Source: Acidimicrobiia bacterium
Lineage (GTDB): Bacteria; Actinomycetota; Acidimicrobiia; IMCC26256; JAMXLJ01
DNA: 64,000 nucleotides
NCBI GenBank assembly: GCA_024281095.1
Contig: JAMXLJ010000089.1
Coordinates: forward strand, 1-64,000
Direction of reading: 5' to 3'
The position numbers were made by a program, and so were the translations under genes. Positions 1-10,543 of this stretch are shown piece by piece. The notes under the pieces are model-generated. The model was not told the DNA's origin. It worked only from the letters and a program-made list of their open reading frames with translations, and ran no database searches. The stretch's first letter is position 1, and each line of letters begins with the position of its first letter.

Positions 1-2287
1 CCGACACGACGACGAGGCCGTGGCGGGGTGTCTTCATCGGCGGCAACGTCGACCAGGTGTTGGACCCGAGATCCAACGCCTCCACCGTGTCGAACACACC
101 TGTCGGCTTCTCACCACCAACCGTCACCAACCGCTTCCCCACGATCGCCGCACCCAGACCACCCCGCGGCGTCGGCAACGCCGGCAACTGCACCCACTGA
201 TTCGCGGCCGGGTCATAACGCTCCACCGCACCCAGGTTCTTGTCCGCCGACAACGCCCGCCCACCAACGGCGTAGAAATACCGGCCGTCCGACACCCCCG
301 CCAAGTGATCACGCAACGTCGGCATCGGCGCCACATCAGACCAACGCGACCCGTCGAACACCTCGGTCTGCGCAACCAAGCGATGATCAGCCTGCCCACC
401 CGACACCACGATCTTGTCGCCCACCACCGCAGCCGCGCCCGCCGCACGCGGATGCAACAACCCCGGCAACTCCACCCACGCCCCGTTGCGCAACGCGAAC
501 ACACGATTCGACGCGACCGAATCCAACACCGGACCGTTCGGGATCCACCCGCCGATCACGACCATCTCGCCCCGGTACACCACCGCCATGTCGTGATGCA
601 GCGGCACCGGAAGATCCGGACCCGACTGCCACGTCGAGATCGTCGGGTCATACCCCTCGACCTTCGTCGTCGCCCCCGAATCCGTCAGCCCGCCAAACAA
701 CCACACCGACCCCTGCCACACCACCGACGCCAACTGCTGACGCGCCGTCGGCGCACTCGGCAACGCGCGCCAGGCCGAGGCGGTGAGTTGCGTGGGCGGG
801 GCGGCCGGAGCCGCACGACCCGGCTTGCTCTTGCCGCCACCGCCGAGCACGGCCACCGCAACCGCGACGAGCGCGACCACGACGACGATCGCAGCCGCCA
901 CGGGCACGACGAGACCGCGCCGCCGGCTGCGTGTGCGGGACCTGCGACGCTCGGCAGCAACGGGAGATATCGGAGGGCCCGGTGGCGGCGCCGGCTCCGA
1001 CGGTGCGGGCGCGGACTCGGCCGCTGGCGGTGCGGGCGGAGATCCTCCACTCGGCGATGCCGCCGCGGGCTGATCGACGAGGGTCTGAGCCCGCTCGACG
1101 CGTGGCGCGGGCTGTTCGGCTCCGTCCGGGCCCGCATCCGACCCGAGATCGACGGAGACCGTCGCGGGCCGGCTCGTGTTCAGTGTCGGCGGAGCAGGAA
1201 CGCGCCCGCCGCCGCCAACGGCAGCTGCGCCGGACTGCGGGCCGCTGTCGCGCAGTTCGGGGTGGACCACTTGGACCGGAAGGAACTCACCGGCGACCGC
1301 CTCCGGGGGATTGCCGCGCGGTGGAGCGGCCTCGACGGTCATGGCCGCACCGAGTTGCATCGAGGGTGAGAGCTCGCCGAGCGCGGCGGCCAAGATGGAG
1401 CCGCTCGCGGAGATCGGCACGTTGGAGCGCGCCAGCCAACCGCGTCCCCACGTTGCCGCAGCGGATCCCGCGATCGCGACGCCGAACTCCTCCGCGCTCT
1501 GGTAACGGTCGGACGGTGACGTGGAGATCGCGCGATCGGCCACCATCGCCAGCTGCGCCGGCACATGGTGCGCGACCTCCAACAGCGGGGGCGGAGCCTC
1601 GTGCACGTGCCGGTACAGGATCGTCGCGGGATCGGTGTCGGCGGGGAACGGCAGCCGGCCGGCGAGGAGCTCGTACAGCAGCGTGCCGGCCTGGTACACG
1701 TCGGTTGCGGGCGTGAGATCACCGCCGCGGGCTTGCTCGGGCGCGATGTAGGCCGGCGTGCCGAGCACTTCACCAGCGCGCGTCGCCAACGTCGACGCAC
1801 CGCCCACCACTTTCGCAATGCCGAGATCGGTGACCTTGAGCGTTCCGTCGCCGGTGAACATCAGGTTCTCCGGCTTCACGTCGCGGTGCAGCACGCCGTG
1901 TCGGTGCGCGTGATGAAGCCCCGCACAGACCGCGAGCAGGATTGCGCACGACACGTCCGGCGTGAAGCCGCCGGCGTGGAACCGGCTCCACACGGTGCCG
2001 CCGGTGAGGCGCTCCATGACGAGCAGGCAAACACCTTCGTAATCGACGAAGTCGTAGATCGCGACGATGTGCGGATGGTCGAGTGTCGCGAGCACACGCG
2101 CCTCGGCGATGAAGCGTGCCCGCACCGCGGGATCGGCGCCGAATGCACGCGGCAGCTGTTTGATCGCGACGAGTCGCCCCAGCTGGCGGTGACGCCCTGC
2201 CAGCACGACTCCATACGCCCCCCGACCGAGCTCGCTACCTATCTCGTACGCCGGCAGCGCAGCTACGACCCGGTCGTAGTCCACCAC
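1..2287 (-). CDS. Ser/Thr protein kinase with transmembrane segment and kelch-like repeats (3' end outside window)
   Basis: A Hanks-type kinase domain fills about residues 12-265. It has the glycine loop GRGAYGVV, the catalytic HRDVKPEN near residue 131 and DLG in place of DFG near residue 150. A Ser/Pro/Ala-rich linker follows, then a hydrophobic segment near residues 463-483. The extracytoplasmic part contains repeats of the kelch type (for example VWLFGG, MVVIGG and YAVGG), a probable beta-propeller sensor. The reading frame is open to position 1, so the C terminus is missing. The start is GTG at 2287 (a second GTG is at 2284); an in-frame stop at 2357 rules out a much longer N terminus. 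The gene lies 69 nt downstream of the radical SAM gene on the same strand, so co-transcription is possible. Its substrate is unknown; the FHA-containing exporter of this locus is an attractive candidate (inference). Confidence 0.93.
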   Translation of the reverse strand, partial: MVDYDRVVAALPAYEIGSELGRGAYGVVLAGRHRQLGRLVAIKQLPRAFGADPAVRARFIAEARVLATLDHPHIVAIYDFVDYEGVCLLVMERLTGGTVWSRFHAGGFTPDVSCAILLAVCAGLHHAHRHGVLHRDVKPENLMFTGDGTLKVTDLGIAKVVGGASTLATRAGEVLGTPAYIAPEQARGGDLTPATDVYQAGTLLYELLAGRLPFPADTDPATILYRHVHEAPPPLLEVAHHVPAQLAMVADRAISTSPSDRYQSAEEFGVAIAGSAAATWGRGWLARSNVPISASGSILAAALGELSPSMQLGAAMTVEAAPPRGNPPEAVAGEFLPVQVVHPELRDSGPQSGAAAVGGGGRVPAPPTLNTSRPATVSVDLGSDAGPDGAEQPAPRVERAQTLVDQPAAASPSGGSPPAPPAAESAPAPSEPAPPPGPPISPVAAERRRSRTRSRRRGLVVPVAAAIVVVVALVAVAVAVLGGGGKSKPGRAAPAAPPTQLTASAWRALPSAPTARQQLASVVWQGSVWLFGGLTDSGATTKVEGYDPTISTWQSGPDLPVPLHHDMAVVYRGEMVVIGGWIPNGPVLDSVASNRVFALRNGAWVELPGLLHPRAAGAAAVVGDKIVVSGGQADHRLVAQTEVFDGSRWSDVAPMPTLRDHLAGVSDGRYFYAVGGRALSADKNLGAVERYDPAANQWVQLPALPTPRGGLGAAIVGKRLVTVGGEKPTGVFDTVEALDLGSNTWSTLPPMKTPRHGLVVVS

Positions 2288-2356: not shown

Positions 2357-3709
2357 CTATCGGCGGTCGACTGCCCGCGCGAGCTCCCTCGTCTGGACGA
2401 CGCCCTCCATCCCCGCGGCGGCTGCGGCTTCGACGAAGGCGAGCACCCGGTCATGGTGGTTGTACCGGAATGTGTCGCAGCGGTTCTCGTGCTGGATCAC
2501 ATCCATGCCGTGATGGGCGCAGCCGCCCATGCACACCGGCAGGGCGACACAGTTACAACACTCCTCGTTCGTGAAGGGGTTGTACCTCAGCCAGCGCTGC
2601 AGACGGCCGTTCGTGTTCTGATAATCGGACACGTGGCCGATGACCTCGTTGGGATTGCCGACCGAGTCCCAGCATTTGTAGAGCTCGCCATCGCTTCCGA
2701 CAACGAGCTCGTTGGCGCGCACCGCGGTGCATGGGGCGCCGGTTCGCTGCGGCACACTCGGCCCTCCGAAGCCATAGCGCATGATGAGCTCGGTGAACTC
2801 GGTTTCCGCCTTGGCGAACTCACTCGAAGTGAAGCACGCACCCATGTACGAGGCCGACGGGGAAAGGTTGCCGTCGTCGACGCCGACGATCTGGCCGAGG
2901 TTCACCGTCAGCTTTCCCGCCAGGCCCTCAGCGGACAGGATCCGCAACAGTTCCTCGGCCCGCGGGTAGTTCCCTGCATCGACGTTCATGCGAATCGAGA
3001 TTCGCAGGTACTCGACCGCGTGATGGAGGTTCTGCACGATCTGCCAGAACGTCCCCTTGCCGTTCGCGAGCGGTCGCATGCGGTCGTGCACGTCGGGGGG
3101 ACCGTCGAGGCACACCTGCACGTGCTGCACTCGCCGGTCACGAAGCTGTTCGCACGTCTCCTCGTCGAGGAGATACCCGTTCGTCGTGATCGTCGCCGAG
3201 TACCCGACCTCAGCGCGATCACACCTGTCGATGAACGCGTCCGACAGGGCGAGCAGTGCACGCTTGCCGATGAGAGGCTCGCCACCGAACCACGTGACAC
3301 CGAACTGCCTGATCCGCGGCAGCTGGTCGTCGAGGATCGCAAGGATGCCGGCCTGCACGTCGTCACCCATGATCGACGGGTGCTTGTCCTCGAAACAGTA
3401 CGGACAATCGAAGTTGCAGCCCAGACTGGTGACGATCGTCAACCCGAACTGCGAGGTGTCGTAGCGCGTCAGGTCGTAGAGCGTCTCGAGCGCCTTCAGC
3501 TCGTCGTAGTCGTCCGAGACCAGCATGCGTCCTTTCGCCATGTCGGCGAGCAAGGCGGGTCGGACGTCCGGGTCGGGCTCGTCGTCGAGGAAGCGCCGGA
3601 GCCCGTCGTAGTCGCGTTCCGCGATCCGTAGGAGCGCGCCGCTGTTGCCGTTGTAGACGTAGCGACTGTCGCCGTGCCCGACCCAGACGTTGTACCGCGA
3701 CTGCTTCAC
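2357..3709 (-). CDS. Radical SAM/SPASM peptide maturase
   Basis: The 450-residue protein begins with a region typical of SPASM peptide maturases (SRYNVW...YVYNGNSGALL), which probably contacts the leader peptide. The radical SAM cluster motif CNFDCPYC (CX3CX2C, Cys98/102/105) follows. The C-terminal third is rich in cysteines (PCTAV, YKCWD, CCNC, PVCMGGC and a late Cys), as expected for a SPASM domain binding auxiliary [4Fe-4S] clusters. Family knowledge says such enzymes install thioether or carbon cross-links in ribosomal peptides. The GTG start at 3709 is chosen because GAAAGG lies a few bases upstream and because it falls just after the third precursor gene (13-nt gap). Longer in-frame starts would run into that precursor. 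Its likely substrates are the three Cys-rich proteins encoded immediately upstream. The exact cross-link chemistry cannot be read from sequence. Confidence 0.93.
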   Translation of the reverse strand: MKQSRYNVWVGHGDSRYVYNGNSGALLRIAERDYDGLRRFLDDEPDPDVRPALLADMAKGRMLVSDDYDELKALETLYDLTRYDTSQFGLTIVTSLGCNFDCPYCFEDKHPSIMGDDVQAGILAILDDQLPRIRQFGVTWFGGEPLIGKRALLALSDAFIDRCDRAEVGYSATITTNGYLLDEETCEQLRDRRVQHVQVCLDGPPDVHDRMRPLANGKGTFWQIVQNLHHAVEYLRISIRMNVDAGNYPRAEELLRILSAEGLAGKLTVNLGQIVGVDDGNLSPSASYMGACFTSSEFAKAETEFTELIMRYGFGGPSVPQRTGAPCTAVRANELVVGSDGELYKCWDSVGNPNEVIGHVSDYQNTNGRLQRWLRYNPFTNEECCNCVALPVCMGGCAHHGMDVIQHENRCDTFRYNHHDRVLAFVEAAAAAGMEGVVQTRELARAVDRR

Positions 3710-3722
3710 GTGAGCCGGCCTT

Positions 3723-4031
3723 TCACCCGATGCCCGGGTTGATGATCGAGCAGATCTCTTTCGACGCGCACGGGAACCAGATCTTCGGGGCGCAATCGCT
3801 TTGCGGGTTGCAGACCCCGTATCCCGGCGCGCTGCACTTCGTGGGACATCGCTTCGAGAAGGTCTCCACCTCCGGGTTCGCGTCCTCCTCCACCGCGCGC
3901 ACGAGTTCGTCGAGGGCGGCACGAATAGCAGGCGTCAGCGCCGCGTCGGGACCGACGGCGACGCCGATGTGGACCTCGGGGGGCTCGACCACCCAGCCGC
4001 TCTGGTCGCCTGATCCCGCGCCGTCGCTCAT
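3723..4031 (-). CDS. Cys-rich RiPP precursor, third paralogue
   Basis: This 102-residue protein has the shared leader-like half: GWVVEPP near residue 12, then an amphipathic helix ALTPAIRAALDELVRAVEE at about 31-49, ending in EVETF. The tail carries six cysteines at 62, 66, 74, 80, 88 and 94, spaced C-X3-C-X7-C-X5-C-X7-C-X5-C. It is the most divergent of the three and lacks the CPTW ending of the other two. The start ATG is preceded by TTGGAGGA. It is the last precursor before the radical SAM gene. Assignment as a substrate rests on paralogy, size, cysteine pattern and position; no known precursor family was recognised. Confidence 0.8.
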   Translation of the reverse strand: MSDGAGSGDQSGWVVEPPEVHIGVAVGPDAALTPAIRAALDELVRAVEEDANPEVETFSKRCPTKCSAPGYGVCNPQSDCAPKIWFPCASKEICSIINPGIG

Positions 4032-4051
4032 CGTTCAGTCCTCCAACTCGC

Positions 4052-4345
4052 TCACATGCCGGTCCAGGTCGGGCACGCGATGATCCGGCAGTCGATGATG
4101 TACTTGTCGAGGCACGGAGACTCCGTGCGCGGCGCGCACTGGGTCTGCTTGCCGCATTTCCTGAACGCCTCGACCTCCGCCTGCTCGACGCCGGCAGGCA
4201 GCTCCTCGAGCGCGCGCACGAGCCCCTCGACCGCTGCTCGCAGCTCCGGGGTGAGCTCGTCGGCGTTCGAGATGTCAACGCTGATCAATGCCGCGTCGGG
4301 CGCCGCCGGCTCGACGACCCAGCCGGAATCTCCCTGGTCGTTCAT
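4052..4345 (-). CDS. Cys-rich RiPP precursor, second paralogue
   Basis: This 97-residue protein parallels the first precursor closely. It starts MNDQGDSGWVVEP, has the conserved ALISV block, then the helix ELTPELRAAVEGLVRALEE near 30-48 and the junction EVEAF near 57-61. The tail has five cysteines at 64, 70, 78, 86 and 91 with spacing C-X5-C-X7-C-X7-C-X4-C followed by PTW, identical to the first paralogue, while most residues between the cysteines differ. Conserved cysteine spacing with variable loops suggests selection on a cross-linked topology. A purine-rich stretch GGTGGTGGCGA directly precedes the ATG. It is separated by 49 nt from the first paralogue and 20 nt from the third, so one transcript is likely. 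Confidence 0.84.
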   Translation of the reverse strand: MNDQGDSGWVVEPAAPDAALISVDISNADELTPELRAAVEGLVRALEELPAGVEQAEVEAFRKCGKQTQCAPRTESPCLDKYIIDCRIIACPTWTGM

Positions 4346-4394
4346 TCGCCACCACCCATGTGCGGGAAAGCCGATGCTCGACGCCCACGGGCGC

Positions 4395-4703
4395 TCACTG
4401 GACGACCAGCCACGTGGGGCATTTCTCGATCCGACAGCTCTCGATCTGCTTCGCGAGGCACGGCGTCCACGTCTGCGGGTTGCAGCGCACGTTGGTGTCG
4501 CAGGTGGCCCCTTGCCGGAACGCTTCGACCTCGGGCGGCGTCTCGTCGCTCGGCACTTCTTGGATCGCCCGGATCAGGTCCTCCAATGCGGCGCGCAGCG
4601 CGGGGCTGAGCTCCGCGTGCTCGGAGAACTCAACGCTGATCAAGGCGATATCGGGGCCCGGCGGCTCGAGGATCCAACTCGAACCTGCTTCGGCGTCGTT
4701 CAT
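4395..4703 (-). CDS. Cys-rich RiPP precursor, first paralogue
   Basis: This 102-residue protein is the first gene of the precursor operon. Its leader half contains SSWILEPPGPDIALISV, a helix ELSPALRAALEDLIRAIQE near 31-49 and the junction EVEAF near 58-62. The core half has cysteines at 68, 74, 82, 90 and 95, spaced C-X5-C-X7-C-X7-C-X4-C, then PTWLVVQ to the end. There is no signal peptide and no double-glycine site, so leader removal would need a dedicated protease; the subtilisin encoded across the sigma-factor gene is the obvious candidate. AAGAGGTG lies just upstream of the ATG as ribosome-binding site, and an ECF-type promoter pattern lies about 30-50 nt upstream. Confidence 0.84.
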   Translation of the reverse strand: MNDAEAGSSWILEPPGPDIALISVEFSEHAELSPALRAALEDLIRAIQEVPSDETPPEVEAFRQGATCDTNVRCNPQTWTPCLAKQIESCRIEKCPTWLVVQ

Positions 4704-4806: not shown

Positions 4807-5514
4807 GTGGGGTCAACCCGGGGCACGGACGCTGACCTCGTCCGCGCGGCCGTCGTCGGCGATGCGGACGCGTTCGCGGTCTTGTACCGACGCCACGTCG
4901 CGGCGGTCCACCGGGTGCTGTCGGCATCCGTGCGCGACCGTGAAGCAGCTGCAGACCTCACACAAGAGGTCTTCGCGCGTGCGATCAAGGCCCTTCCGGC
5001 ACTGCGCGACCCGGATCGCTTCCGGCCGTGGATCCTCGCGATCGCCCGTCATGCCGCGATCGACGCCGCACGAACCGACCCGCGTTCACGCTCGTACGAC
5101 GCCGAGGCCGACGAGGGACCGCCGGACCGCGATCCCACCCCCGCGGAGCTCGCGGAGCTCGACTATCTCGTCCAGCGGGTGCGAGGGTGCATCGCCAGCC
5201 TGTCGGCGCGTGATGCCACCGTGCTCGCGCTCGTGACACAATTGGGATATTCACCCGCAGAGGTCGCACAAGCGATCGGCATCACCCCGGGTGCCGCGAA
5301 GGTCGTCCTGCACCGCGCGCGGCGGCGGCTGCGCAGTGCGATCGCATTGACGCTCCTGACCGAGAACCAGGGGGCTGCGTGCCCCGTGTTCCGCTCGGCG
5401 TACCAGCAGGGGCGGCTGGCACAGGCAGGGGCACACGCCTCGTCGTGCCCGACCTGCGCCCGCGTCGTCAACGCCGACGTCGAACTCTTCGGGGCCGGCA
5501 CCGCGACCGGCTGA
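4807..5514 (+). CDS. ECF-family RNA polymerase sigma factor with C-terminal HxxxCxxC motif
   Basis: The 235-residue protein has sigma region 2 at about 10-90 (DLTQEVFARA and DRFRPWILAIARHAAID) and region 4 at about 118-178 (LGYSPAEVAQAIGITPGAAKVVLHRARRRLR), the normal two-domain ECF layout. A tail of about 55 residues follows and contains HASSCPTC, that is His210-X3-Cys214-X2-Cys217. This HxxxCxxC pattern is typical of zinc-binding anti-sigma domains, so the factor may carry its own regulatory element. No separate anti-sigma gene is next to it. GTG at 4807 is chosen because the sigma domain begins there; upstream sequence in the same frame is antisense to precursor genes. The gene points away from the precursors and converges with the export/processing operon. 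Confidence 0.9.
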   Translation: MGSTRGTDADLVRAAVVGDADAFAVLYRRHVAAVHRVLSASVRDREAAADLTQEVFARAIKALPALRDPDRFRPWILAIARHAAIDAARTDPRSRSYDAEADEGPPDRDPTPAELAELDYLVQRVRGCIASLSARDATVLALVTQLGYSPAEVAQAIGITPGAAKVVLHRARRRLRSAIALTLLTENQGAACPVFRSAYQQGRLAQAGAHASSCPTCARVVNADVELFGAGTATG

Positions 5515-5531: not shown

Positions 5532-5813
5532 CTAATCGCCCGGGCTCTCCAAGCCGACAACGCGGAGCGCGGCGCGTTGCATTGCGTCCGCGAGCAGGTC
5601 CGGGAGCGGCGCGAGCGCCGTGACGCCAAAGCCGGCAAGCTCGTCGCCGCCGTACGCGGCCGCGACGGCGGGGGCGAGCAGTGCGGCGAGCACCACCCGC
5701 TCCTCGTCGTCGAGGTCCTCGGCGACGAATCGCCGCAGCTTCGCGAGCAAGCGCTCGACAGCGTCCCGGTCCACGCTTCTCCGGACAACATCAGACGCGC
5801 ACGGTTGCGTCAA
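5532..5813 (-). CDS. Small acidic helical protein, last gene of the export/processing operon
   Basis: About 93 residues if it starts at the TTG that overlaps the subtilisin stop (TTGA), or 80 residues from the GTG at 5774, which has GGAGA only a few bases upstream. The sequence is mostly helical: VERLLAKLRRFVAEDL, then DDEERVVLAALLAPAVAAAY and a C-terminal DLLADAMQRAALRVV helix. It has at most one cysteine, near the extreme N terminus of the longer form, so it does not resemble the Cys-rich precursors. I do not recognise the family. Its position in a tightly coupled operon argues that it is real. Possible roles are an accessory or immunity-type protein or an unrelated peptide substrate, but nothing in the sequence decides this. 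Confidence 0.55.
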   Translation of the reverse strand: MTQPCASDVVRRSVDRDAVERLLAKLRRFVAEDLDDEERVVLAALLAPAVAAAYGGDELAGFGVTALAPLPDLLADAMQRAALRVVGLESPGD

Positions 5814-6724
5814 GGTGCCGCGGGCCCGAGCTGGGAGAGCGCGGCGCTCGCCCGGGCGGACGCCACCCGCTGCATCGTACGGCTGAGGCGGCCCGCCATC
5901 CTCGGGGCTTCGACGACGTTCGCAGCGGTCGCCCACAGCACCGTCTTCAGCTGGAAGGGCCGGAGCTCCGGGTGCTTCGAGCGGATCAGCGCGGCGATGC
6001 CCGCGATGTGGGGAGCCGCGAACGAGTTGCCCGTGCTCGACATCCGCGAGCCGCCCCGCCACGCGACGTCGACGTCGATGCCGGGAGCGAGGAACTCCGT
6101 CGGAGGCTCGGGGTTGTAGTGGAACCGGAACGGGTCGCGCGACATGTTGCACGCGACGCTCGTCACCGACGCGAAGAGCGACGGAAAGCTCGGCCGCACG
6201 ATGTTGTTGGCCGCGGTCACGATGAGCGAGTTGCGGAAGTACCCCTCGTCGCAGATCTCGTAAAACGGAAGTGCCCACTCGCGTTTCGTGGTTCCAAGCG
6301 AGAGGTTGATGACGTCGAAGCCCTCATCGACCGCCCAAGCGAGGCCGCGAAGGAACGCGGCCGCCTTACCACCGAGCCCGCCGCCGATGACCTTCACGCT
6401 CGTGAGGCGGGCGTCCGGTGCGAGCGAGTGCACGATCCCCGCGCATGCGGTGCCGTGGCCGAAGGCGTCGTCGTGGGGGCCGCGGGCCTCCACGACGTCG
6501 CCTGCTGAGTCGATCGTGACGAAGATGCCGCGGTCAACGTCGACGCAGCCGTGCAGGTCGGGATGGTCGGCCTCGATCCCGCTGTCGACGATCGCGACCC
6601 GAACCCCCCGACCTGTCGCGCCACCCCATGCCCATTCGGGTGTCAGGTCGTCGAGCGACAGGGTCCCCGGGAGGCGCAGGGACAACGAGTCACGACTGTA
6701 TGCGGGTCGGTCGGAGTCACCCAC
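5810..6724 (-). CDS. Subtilisin-family (S8) serine protease, cytoplasmic, candidate leader peptidase
   Basis: The 304-residue protein has the full catalytic set: Asp in IVDSGIEADHPDL (about residue 47), His in FGHGTACAG (about 90), an oxyanion Asn in TAANN (about 173) and Ser in STGNSFAAPHIAG (about 234). There is no signal peptide, no long propeptide and no cell-wall segment, so it should act inside the cell. That fits a leader peptidase for ribosomal peptides; dedicated subtilisins do this job in some lanthipeptide clusters. GTG at 6724 overlaps the end of the GAF gene by 8 nt; a TTG at 6742 would add six residues. Translational coupling with the GAF and transporter genes ties it to the same pathway. 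Confidence 0.9.
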   Translation of the reverse strand: MGDSDRPAYSRDSLSLRLPGTLSLDDLTPEWAWGGATGRGVRVAIVDSGIEADHPDLHGCVDVDRGIFVTIDSAGDVVEARGPHDDAFGHGTACAGIVHSLAPDARLTSVKVIGGGLGGKAAAFLRGLAWAVDEGFDVINLSLGTTKREWALPFYEICDEGYFRNSLIVTAANNIVRPSFPSLFASVTSVACNMSRDPFRFHYNPEPPTEFLAPGIDVDVAWRGGSRMSSTGNSFAAPHIAGIAALIRSKHPELRPFQLKTVLWATAANVVEAPRMAGRLSRTMQRVASARASAALSQLGPAAP

Positions 6725-7277
6725 TGGCGAGGAGAGCGGCAAGGAGCGTCGCGACGGTCGCGTACCGTCCAGGGTCGGAATCAGCCAGGCGGCGTAACTC
6801 GCCGGCTAGCTCGTTCGGCAGAGGCACGCCAGCACGGGCCGAGGGGAGAGCCGCGAGCGCGACACCCGCGATGCCCGCCAACATCGTCGCGAGCTCGACG
6901 TCGTCGAAGCTGAACTTCTCGGATCCGAGCTTGTCGACGATCTCGAGAACGCCGACGGCACCCGAGTCGGAGTCGCACGGGATGCACAGCACGCTCGCCG
7001 GCCGGCGGCCGATGACCGCCGCCATGCCGGTCGACGCGCGCTCATCGTCGGCGTCCGGCGCGATGGCGATCGGTTGGTCCGACTCGAGCACGAACCCGGC
7101 AGTGCCAACGCCCGCCGGAATCCTGGCGCCCACCGCCGCGGCCGCTGCCGGTCCCGCGGCCGCGACAACTTCGAGAACTTCGTCGCGACGGACAAGGATC
7201 CAGCCGTCGGTGCCACCCGTCGCGTGAACCGCGGCCTCCACGAGCGCCTGCACAACCGGTGCGACCTCGTCCGTCAT
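6717..7277 (-). CDS. GAF-domain protein
   Basis: A 186-residue protein made mainly of one GAF domain at about residues 8-142: DGWILVRRDE, IPAGVGTAGFVLES, ASVLCIPCDSDSGAVGVLEIVDK and FSFDDVELATMLAGIAGVAL. A short helical tail follows. No catalytic or DNA-binding domain is attached, so it probably senses a small molecule or acts as a scaffold for a partner. The ATG overlaps the stop of the transporter gene (ATGA), and its own end overlaps the protease start, so the three are almost certainly co-translated. The ligand cannot be predicted. The motif LCIPCDSDSG has two cysteines that might matter for redox or metal sensing, which is speculative. Confidence 0.85.
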   Translation of the reverse strand: MTDEVAPVVQALVEAAVHATGGTDGWILVRRDEVLEVVAAAGPAAAAAVGARIPAGVGTAGFVLESDQPIAIAPDADDERASTGMAAVIGRRPASVLCIPCDSDSGAVGVLEIVDKLGSEKFSFDDVELATMLAGIAGVALAALPSARAGVPLPNELAGELRRLADSDPGRYATVATLLAALLASG

Positions 7278-10200
7278 GGCACCACCGCCGTGAAAGCTCC
7301 ACTCACGCGCGGCCCGGCCGGCGTAGCACGCTCGCCGGCTGACGCTTGCACGCGGCTGGACCGCATCACGAGGCTGGCCCTGCTGAGCCTTTGGCCGCCG
7401 CTCGGTGCGACGCGGTGGTCCTCTCCCATGAGCGCGGCGGCGACAGTCGGGTGGCGGGCCGCGAGTGCGGCAAGATCCTCGGCGTCGAGAAGCAACAGCT
7501 CGACGGGCTCGTCGGCGCAGAGGACGGCACCAGTCTCTGCGCCGAGCACCGCCGCCACGCCGAACGCGTCGCCGGGCCGCAACTTCGCGGCCGCCACGAG
7601 TTGCCCGTCGAGACCGGGTGCAAGTACACGGGGACGACCTCTTCGCACGAACGCCAAGGCGCCCGTGTTGTCGGCGAAGCGTGCACCCGCCGCCAGGTCG
7701 ACCGCGCGCAATCGCGTCGCGACATCCACGAGATCGTCACGGCCCAAGCCAAAGAAGAAGTGCACGGCCGATAGAGCGGCGACGGCATCGAACGGCGTAT
7801 CCGTCGGCGTGATGCCACCCGTCTGCTCGCTCCAGAGCTCGGCGTACACACCCCCGAGCGCGAGGAGCTCGGCGTGCGTGCCGCGTTCCACGAGGTGACC
7901 GTCGGACATCACGAAGATCACGTCGTACTCCGTGATGGACGTCAGCCGGTGTGTCACGGCGATCGTGGTGCGTCCCTCCCCTACGCGCTCGAGCGTCGCG
8001 CTGATGCGTCGCTCGGTTCGGGGGTCGAGTGCCGAGGTCGCCTCGTCGAGCAACAGCACAGACGGGCCGCGAAGGAGCGCGCGCGCCAGCGCCAGCCGTT
8101 GCCGTTGGCCACCAGACAGCCGGTTCCCTCGCTCGCCCACGAGCGTGCCGTACCCGCGGGGCAACGTCTCGACGAACTCGTGAAGCTCCGCCGCACGCGA
8201 GGCGGCCTCGATCTCCGCGTCGGTGGCGTCCGGCTTGCCGAGCGCGATGTTCTCCCGAATGGTCGTGTCGAAGAGGAACGTGTCTTGGAACACGACGCCC
8301 AGCTGGCCGCGCAGCGACGCGAGCGTCACCTTGCGCACGTTGTGGCCGTCGAACAGAACGGCACCGGCGTTGACGTCGTAGAACCGCATGATGAGTTGGA
8401 GGACGGACGACTTCCCGGCGCCGGTCGGACCGACGAACGCGACGCGGCTCCCAGCCGGAATCGTGCACGTGATGCCTTCGAGGGTCGCACGGTCCGCGGT
8501 GTACGAGAAGTCGACATGGTCGAGTTGGATCTCGCGCTCGAGGGGCGCGAGATCAAAAGCGTCGGAGAGATCGTCGATCTCGCGCTGCGCGTCGAGTACT
8601 TCGTTGATACGCATGAGCGAACCGGTCGTGGCCTGCACCTGCTGACCGAGGCTCGTGAGCGCGGCCACGGGGCTCAGCACCTGTCCCATCATCGTCGTGA
8701 ACGCCACGAGCCCCCCGACCGTCAGTCGCCCGTGCAGGATCAACCACGAACCCAGCCCGAGCACGATGAGCTGCAACACGGTCACGATCATGTTGACGGA
8801 GAGACTGAACATGGCACCGAAGAGTTGTAGCTTGATCTCGCGGCCGAAGAGACGTTCGGACGCGCGACCGAACCGATCCTGCTCGCGTCGTTCCAGGCCG
8901 AACGCTTTGACGACCGCCTGCGCGCCGTAGTTCTCGGAAGCAACGGTGTACGTCGAGCCGAGCTCCTCCTGCACGGCGAGACTCCGACGTTGCGCGCCCG
9001 ACGCCATCGCGCGGTAGACGAGACCGACGAGCGGTGCGCCGATGATCACGACGAGGCCGAGGATCGGATCGAGCGTGACCAGCACGACTGCTGAGACCGC
9101 AACGGTCAACACCTGAAAGACGCCCTCACGGATGGTGAGGGAGATGCCCGCCTCCAGCTGTCCGACGTCCGAGAACAACCGGGAGAGCACGTCCCCCTCC
9201 TGCTGACGGCCGAACCACCCGGTCGAAAGGGCCTGCAACCGTGCGAACATGTCGACTCTCAGATCGCGTGTCACGGCGCTGCTCACATAGGCCGAGAGAT
9301 ACGAGCGCCGGAGCCCGGCGAGCAACGAGACGAGGAACGCAATGCCGAGCGCACCGACGATCTGCACCACTTGGCCGAAGCTGTGGCGCGGGATGGCGCT
9401 GTCGAACAGGCGTCGCATCGCGAACGGGAACACGGTGGTGAACCCGAGCGCGAGGACCATGTAGACGAAGATCTCGGCCTCCCGGCGCATGTGCGGCCGC
9501 AGATACCGCGCCGTGAGCCGTAGGAACTGTGTCAGTTTCACCTTCGGCTGCCGCTCGCCGAGCGCATCGCGCCACGCCTCCTCGAGCGCGGACAGGTTCT
9601 GCCCGTACACCTCGTGGACCGCGACGTCGAGGGCGCCCGGGCGCGCGCTCCACACGAGGCGGCGGAACGCGTCATGGCCGTCGCGCTCGATAAGGAACGA
9701 GACGAATGACTGAAGCATCGCGGTGCGGAGCTCGCCGTCTGCGTCCTCGAGCGTCGGAAGATCGACAGCGGCGAGCTCGTCGTCCGGGATCGGCCCGTCG
9801 GACACGGCAAGGCCGTAGCCCTCGAGGAGGAACCCGATCTCGCTCGCGGCGGGGAGCGCGGCGCCGAGCAAGAGCGCCAGTGCTCGCTCGGGCGCCTCGG
9901 GCGGCGCCTCGGCGGTCACAGCCATCCAGATCTCGCGCCGCTCGGCGTCGACGACGCTTCCGGCCGTCACCATCTCGCCGGTTCGCGGGTCGGGAAACGG
10001 GTCGACGAGGCAGAGCTGCGGCGCGACGGCCTGCATGTCGACTCCGAGCCCCGCGAGACGGCCGCGTGCGCGCCTGATCGCGGCAACCATCGCCGGCACC
10101 GCTCGCTCCCCGGCCGTACCCGGCTGGAACCGAATGACGGCGCCGTCGACGGGCCGCGCCTGCAGTTCGGCAAGGCGCACGGGCGCCGCCTGGTGAACCG

Positions 10201-10543
10201 GCCCCGCGAGGACCGCGATCTCGACACGGCCGAGGCGGACGCGGTCACCGGCACCGAGCGGGACGCAGCCGTCGATCGGAACATCGTTGACGGACGTCCC
10301 GTTCAAGCTCTCGAGGTCCGTGACCGTGAGCCCGGTCGGACCGACGTCCAAGGCGAGGTGACGGCGCGAGACCCTGGGATCGTCGACGACGACGCCCTCG
10401 CACTCGCGCCCGATGACAACGCGCGTGGTCACCGTGACGCGCCGCGGCGGCCGCCCCTCTTCACGGATCTCGACGACGTGCGCGTCGCCGCCCCCCGATG
10501 CGCCCTCGGTGCTCGCCGGCGCCTGACCCCCCATTGGCCGCAC
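7274..10543 (-). CDS. FHA / degenerate peptidase / ABC exporter / cyclic-nucleotide-binding-like fusion
   Basis: A 1089-residue multidomain protein. Residues about 37-112 form an FHA phosphothreonine-binding domain (VIGRE, SRRH, NGT). Residues about 140-335 resemble the MA-type zinc peptidases (FLLEGYGLAVSD, QSFVSFLIERDG, LDVAVHEVYGQNLSALEEAW) but without the HExxH zinc site. Residues about 350-645 are an ABC exporter membrane domain, and 670-905 the ATPase with Walker A GPTGAGKS (705-712), signature LSGGQ (809-813) and Walker B LLLDE. Residues about 920-1040 look like a cyclic-nucleotide-binding fold. There is no N-terminal C39 peptidase, so leader cleavage must be done elsewhere. NHLM-type bacteriocin exporters also carry a cyclic-nucleotide-like domain (family knowledge). 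GTG at 10543 or ATG at 10534 may be the start. Confidence 0.9.
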   Translation of the reverse strand: MRPMGGQAPASTEGASGGGDAHVVEIREEGRPPRRVTVTTRVVIGRECEGVVVDDPRVSRRHLALDVGPTGLTVTDLESLNGTSVNDVPIDGCVPLGAGDRVRLGRVEIAVLAGPVHQAAPVRLAELQARPVDGAVIRFQPGTAGERAVPAMVAAIRRARGRLAGLGVDMQAVAPQLCLVDPFPDPRTGEMVTAGSVVDAERREIWMAVTAEAPPEAPERALALLLGAALPAASEIGFLLEGYGLAVSDGPIPDDELAAVDLPTLEDADGELRTAMLQSFVSFLIERDGHDAFRRLVWSARPGALDVAVHEVYGQNLSALEEAWRDALGERQPKVKLTQFLRLTARYLRPHMRREAEIFVYMVLALGFTTVFPFAMRRLFDSAIPRHSFGQVVQIVGALGIAFLVSLLAGLRRSYLSAYVSSAVTRDLRVDMFARLQALSTGWFGRQQEGDVLSRLFSDVGQLEAGISLTIREGVFQVLTVAVSAVVLVTLDPILGLVVIIGAPLVGLVYRAMASGAQRRSLAVQEELGSTYTVASENYGAQAVVKAFGLERREQDRFGRASERLFGREIKLQLFGAMFSLSVNMIVTVLQLIVLGLGSWLILHGRLTVGGLVAFTTMMGQVLSPVAALTSLGQQVQATTGSLMRINEVLDAQREIDDLSDAFDLAPLEREIQLDHVDFSYTADRATLEGITCTIPAGSRVAFVGPTGAGKSSVLQLIMRFYDVNAGAVLFDGHNVRKVTLASLRGQLGVVFQDTFLFDTTIRENIALGKPDATDAEIEAASRAAELHEFVETLPRGYGTLVGERGNRLSGGQRQRLALARALLRGPSVLLLDEATSALDPRTERRISATLERVGEGRTTIAVTHRLTSITEYDVIFVMSDGHLVERGTHAELLALGGVYAELWSEQTGGITPTDTPFDAVAALSAVHFFFGLGRDDLVDVATRLRAVDLAAGARFADNTGALAFVRRGRPRVLAPGLDGQLVAAAKLRPGDAFGVAAVLGAETGAVLCADEPVELLLLDAEDLAALAARHPTVAAALMGEDHRVAPSGGQRLSRASLVMRSSRVQASAGERATPAGPRVSGAFTAVVP

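Follow-up and report, generated by a model that had tools for sequence, protein, structure and literature searches.

A probable accessory RiPP cluster in an Acidimicrobiia bacterium, with three cysteine-rich precursor paralogues, one radical-SAM/SPASM maturase and a candidate S8 leader peptidase

The window analysed here, a stretch of 64,000 nucleotides from an Acidimicrobiia bacterium, carries three short cysteine-rich genes in front of a single radical-SAM gene, which raises the question of whether the three encode RiPP precursors and, if so, how their products are matured and released. Our reading of the locus from its sequence, which we hold to be probably right as a whole, is an accessory RiPP cluster in which three diversifying paralogues are served by one maturase, an S8 leader peptidase and an FHA-ABC-cNMP exporter. 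The three precursor genes lie where the sequence-only reading had placed them, between 3723 and 4703 on the minus strand, and the minus-strand order is P1, P2, P3 and then the maturase gene, whose start lies 13 bases past the P3 stop when judged by eye (Table 1).

Table 1. Genes and border motifs of the cluster region, in window coordinates
Feature	Coordinates	Strand	Remarks
P1, precursor peptide gene	4395..4703	-	102 aa
P2, precursor peptide gene	4052..4345	-	97 aa
P3, precursor peptide gene	3723..4031	-	102 aa
P1 leader/core border motif EVEAF	4518..4532	-
P2 leader/core border motif EVEAF	4163..4177	-
P3 leader/core border motif EVETF	3858..3872	-
Radical-SAM/SPASM maturase	2357..3709	-	450 aa, GTG start
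S8 subtilase	5810..6742	-	proposed leader peptidase
GAF-domain protein	6717..7277	-
FHA - ABC transporter - cNMP-binding protein	7274..10543	-	proposed exporter
ECF-type sigma factor	4807..5514	+	divergent from P1; kin beside other S8 modules
Conserved small protein of S8 module	5532..5774	-	80 aa
Ser/Thr kinase, Kelch-like repeats (by eye)	1..2287	-	downstream of maturase, exits window

The cysteine gaps are 5-7-7-4 in both P1 and P2, which bears out the pattern C-X5-C-X7-C-X7-C-X4-CPTW attributed to them earlier, and both proteins end in CPTW and a short tail. Shuffled P1 and P2 cores share an identical five-cysteine spacing with a probability of 2.5e-5, and because the two proteins are homologous the match is conservation and not coincidence. 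P3 does have six cysteines with X7 and X5 gaps (3-7-5-7-5), but these do not stand in another order as had been claimed, since its C-X5-C-X7-C aligns with P1 and P2 in the same order; it departs from them by extra N-terminal Cys and a terminal C-X5-C. The nearest relative, L002, has three tandem paralogues, two of which repeat the final 5-7-5 run of P3 (gaps 5-5-5-7-5, 4-5-5-7-5 and, in the third, 5-4-7-5). Pairwise identity among P1–P3 is 51–56% in the leaders and 44–50% in the cores with the matched cysteines counted, and a genome search found no further homologues in the window's genome, all of which supports the proposed origin by gene duplication. The N-terminal halves also look like the leaders they were taken for, being free of cysteine in all three proteins, predicted (at low confidence) to form one helix in front of a disordered core, and shared with the precursors of most relatives of the locus.

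These relatives come from one scan of genome contigs, in which a close group (L002–L012 and L014) encodes maturases 41–64% identical to the window's over the alignment; one of them, L011, is truncated and was left out of the maturase alignment. Maturase relatives occur in Actinomycetota, including Streptomyces and Paractinoplanes, and in a Thermomicrobiales MAG, and the family is rare, since searches of 395 genomes from the class and 396 from the phylum gave, at the thresholds used, no maturase besides the window's own. Wherever a relative's locus extends far enough, short candidate precursors lie immediately upstream of the maturase gene, in tandem at L002 (three) and L008 (two); the one at L012 is interrupted by the contig end, and the upstream reading frames of L009 and L014 carry neither the shared leader nor the border motif. 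Most of these precursors have the leader in common, and their cores differ strongly, both in length and in cysteine number, which ranges from 1 to 6. The expectation that core cysteine spacing would be conserved in orthologues holds locally, among close relatives: the last two core cysteines form C-X5-C in P3, in all three L002 paralogues and in L003, L004, L005, L006 and L007, which is most of the nearer group, but the pattern fails in L008, L010 and L012, and P1 and P2 have C-X7-C-RI-X2-C in place of the final C-X5-C. A leader/core precursor beside a modifying enzyme, the mark of a RiPP locus, is retained across genomes.

That the cores diversify, as had been suggested, agrees with a comparison of nonsynonymous change (dN) between leader and core, computed on a MAFFT-based codon alignment for six within-genome pairs from the window and L002. 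The dN of the non-cysteine core is 1.9–2.6 times that of the leader in all six pairs (bootstrap 0.002–0.018), a contrast that dropping the matched cysteines favours and that weakens when they are kept in (bootstrap 0.036–0.112), the cysteines being the most conserved residues of the core. The corresponding dN/dS values are 0.27–0.87 for the leader and 0.66–1.42 for the non-cysteine core. The omitted cysteines, the short genes, the high dS and the mutual dependence of the six pairs limit what follows: the comparison shows cores that are relaxed or diversifying and stops short of proving positive selection.

The maturase exceeds the cut-offs for Radical_SAM in Pfam and for SPASM TIGR04085 (49.4 bits, cut-off 27), and CX3CX2C, the SPASM cysteines and C292 are invariant across fourteen aligned maturase sequences; by these sequence marks it belongs to the radical-SAM/SPASM peptide maturases. 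It has one match in the window's genome, in line with the idea that a single enzyme serves the three paralogues. Its structural model (mean pLDDT 85) begins with a domain of three strands and three helices (bbbaaa), arranged as in RRE domains and with no Pfam match, followed by the barrel and the SPASM parts. The leader of about 60 residues, ending at EVE(A/T)F, would dock on this RRE-like domain, and the enzyme would then link sulphurs of the core cysteines to carbons of other core residues as thioethers. One maturase and three paralogues whose non-cysteine core residues drift or diversify may in this way yield a small family of products.

Thioether formation is suggested on a single ground, kinship. 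Among solved structures, the one closest to the maturase in sequence is CteB, which forms thioethers, and those closest in fold are CteB, TigE and anSME. Since TigE and SuiB, radical-SAM/SPASM maturases of other chemistries, also match the model, the peptides could instead be RiPPs with a carbon-carbon or ether cross-link, or with some other modification, whose cysteines stay free or form disulphides. The upstream reading frames of L012, L009 and L014 point the same way, having one to three cysteines, with a single core cysteine in L012 and L009, so many-ring thioether chemistry is not general to the enzyme family. Against this stand the cysteines as the best-conserved core residues, CteB as the nearest structure, and the fact that the nearest families act on cysteine-rich peptides, and we regard a different modification as unlikely, though still one of the two strongest competitors to the reading given here.

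Past the sigma-factor gene, the minus strand carries the small conserved gene and an S8 gene, which encodes the candidate leader peptidase and overlaps with the GAF and FHA-ABC-cNMP genes in a series. Among 395 Acidimicrobiia, kin of the S8 protease (E below 1e-60) turned up in 6 genomes, one of them the window's own, which leaves 5 of 394 background genomes. Among the eleven genomes of the other maturase loci, seven have the protease at 57–75% identity and four have distant subtilases or none, so that, counting the window's genome, 8 of 12 maturase genomes have it, compared with 5 of 394 in the background (p=4e-11, with the background drawn from one class and the maturase genomes from several). 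The S8 and maturase genes are adjacent in the window and L010, but usually they do not lie near each other; without the two adjacent cases the count is 6 of 10 (p=2e-8). A GAF gene adjoins the S8 gene in 8/8 S8-positive maturase genomes, and an FHA-ABC gene stands beside it in six (the window, L121, L122, L123, L124 and L010). The remaining two are G762, where no FHA-ABC gene was found on the 8.4 kb contig (L125), and the Thermomicrobiales MAG G754, where the S8 gene (L126) has a class IV lanthionine synthetase next to it and the sole sign of an ABC gene is a weak match. With 4 of 12 maturase genomes lacking the protease in their assemblies as they stand, it is not obligatory for them. These genes, the border motif and their co-occurrence with the maturase are additions to the sequence-only reading.

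The presence of S8 is mirrored in the precursors themselves. Precursors of all eight S8-positive genomes have EVx[GAT][FY] at the end of the leader, and those of the four S8-negative genomes lack it (p=0.002), in a comparison for which the motif was defined after the sequences had been viewed, the sample of 12 genomes is small and in part made up of relatives, and the reading frames of L009 and L014 were entered as motif-negative (without them the table is 8 to 2). The background frequency of the motif in long reading frames is about 0.004 per 100 residues, and the motif/S8 label is unclustered on the maturase tree, changing about three times. It is conceivable, at about the same low level as a different cross-link, that the S8 module has nothing to do with the maturase and that the two occur together through common descent or a common tendency towards gene transfer, given that the module occurs without a maturase in the background Acidimicrobiia and the maturase without the module in four genomes. 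Such an account has to contend with the co-occurrence beyond adjacent cases and its extension to the Thermomicrobiales genome, with the joint changes of motif and protease on the tree, and with the adjacency of the genes in the window and L010.

The border also occurs outside the radical-SAM precursors, in the same Thermomicrobiales MAG, which has two class IV lanthipeptide systems (L126 1332-6360 and L139 1019-4287). Their precursors have different, longer leaders, and in both EVEGY precedes a core with Ser, Thr and Cys; each adjoins a LanL above the curated cut-off (674.6 and 702.9 bits), and the L126 system also adjoins GAF and S8 genes. The border is not general to class IV, as the synthetase of G756 (L138) has no motif-bearing reading frame nearby. 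Two precedents exist for the protease. AmyP, according to a review (PMC10885120), is an S8 leader peptidase of class III lanthipeptides whose (T/S/A)EVE motif resembles the EVE(A/T)F seen here; it belongs to a Bacillus lanthipeptide system, unlike the window's, and the likeness is one of description and motif. QhpE, likewise an S8 protease, acts in the cytosol on a peptide that a radical-SAM enzyme has cross-linked, and its cut precedes ABC export (PMC7876137).

On the strength of the co-occurrence, the motif correlation, the lanthipeptides of G754 and the two precedents, the S8 protease is likely the leader peptidase and EVx[GAT][FY] likely its site. It would act in the cytosol, after the maturase, cutting at or next to the border; the FHA-ABC-cNMP transporter would then export the product, and the kinase, the GAF protein and the sigma factor would probably be regulatory, an order of steps that we infer from the parts. 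We tentatively go one step further, in a proposal that we favour somewhat less than its opposite, namely that the S8/GAF protease, in most cases accompanied by an FHA-ABC exporter and in many encoded apart from the biosynthetic genes, is a class-independent finishing unit recognising a common EVx[GAT][FY] border. Precursors with unrelated leaders and modifying enzymes (radical-SAM, class IV lanthipeptides) would then share one border, and a peptide class could join the pathway by acquiring it. The correlation between S8 and motif suggests that a single protease may finish several RiPP classes per cell and offers a possible answer to how peptides are released when their cluster holds no protease.

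How does the cluster compare with known systems? Its best NCBIfam match is TIGR04463 (rSAM_vs_C_rich), at 292 bits under a cut-off of 525, a score that rules out filing the maturase there; the relatives' maturases score 260–298 bits. In the family's example, on a Methylomagnum plasmid, the maturase gene likewise directly follows a cysteine-rich precursor, CefA, which has 679 residues with a C-terminal cysteine at about every fifth, in contrast to the roughly 100-residue leader/core precursors of the window; the gaps of the latter and a CefB score of 203 bits against 600 set the two apart. Clo7bot/CtpM has tandem cysteine-rich paralogues directly before one radical-SAM/SPASM maturase, as here, and its maturase family TIGR04334 is the second-best match (280 bits, under the cut-off of 600), but its precursors have 41–53 residues with a short MKFIKKP-type leader and its annotated neighbours include no S8 or GAF gene. 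Neither TIGR04463 nor Clo7bot was found by name in the literature searched. In SCIFF, the system of CteB, the precursors differ, and the window's maturase reaches 97 bits on TIGR03974 against a cut-off of 425. We see the cluster as a new variation close to the Clo7bot and TIGR04463 systems, by score a member of neither, whose protease step is probably shared and often unclustered. With it, an actinobacterial lineage that has been little studied gains a cysteine-rich radical-SAM peptide family, and the natural variation of the cores behind one shared leader is useful for asking what sets ring positions.

The identical Clo7bot layout also speaks against P1–P3 being small proteins of an ordinary metal-binding or redox kind, with cysteines in a structural role and the neighbouring radical-SAM enzyme acting elsewhere. 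Cysteine-rich proteins with no precursor family match in Pfam or NCBIfam could bind metal through their cores, but across several genera and two phyla the upstream reading frame keeps its leader while core length and cysteine number vary, although the ligands of a metal site should tend to be retained, and the core is predicted to be disordered, so we consider this improbable. Slightly weaker again is maturation of the QHNDH kind (QhpC, QhpD, QhpE, QhpF; PMC7876137), in which P1–P3 would be cross-linked structural subunits and not secreted natural products: its scheme, in which a peptide is cross-linked by a radical-SAM enzyme in the cytosol, loses its leader to an S8 protease and is exported by an ABC transporter, resembles the one proposed, an ABC gene is present, and S8 matches QhpE NF049966 (100 bits, 113 for the L122 homologue, cut-off 165) and the maturase QhpD (83 bits, cut-off 453), yet these scores fall under the curated cut-offs, the three paralogues are variable, and no dehydrogenase-like partner or enzyme subunit genes were noticed beside the cluster.

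The cluster region is accessory. Rightwards of about 10.9 kb the window is collinear with G001, which belongs to the same genus (81–82% DNA identity in the two main aligned blocks); on the other side of that position the two gave no alignment and G001 carries other genes, and G001 has no match to the maturase or the S8 protease at the thresholds used. About 100 bases separate P1 from the start of the sigma-factor gene, whose product has an HxxxCxxC stretch near the C-terminus, seen by eye. The sigma, small-protein and kinase genes recur at several, not all, S8 places of the other maturase genomes, and kin of the kinase (51–60% identity) stand beside several other S8 modules. The small protein, which adjoins S8 and sigma genes in several Acidimicrobiia, has a DELAGF-like motif and belongs to no Pfam family; it was considered as a fourth precursor and dropped, its C-terminal half being conserved between genomes, unlike a core. 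A stretch of the FHA-ABC-cNMP protein is weakly like peptidase MA (E 0.045), and at L010 (4160-5983) a single gene fuses an S8 protease with a protein kinase domain. Finally, a more distant radical-SAM gene, 37% identical to the maturase, lies on a Thermus plasmid (L083, 7001-8068) with transposase genes on either side.
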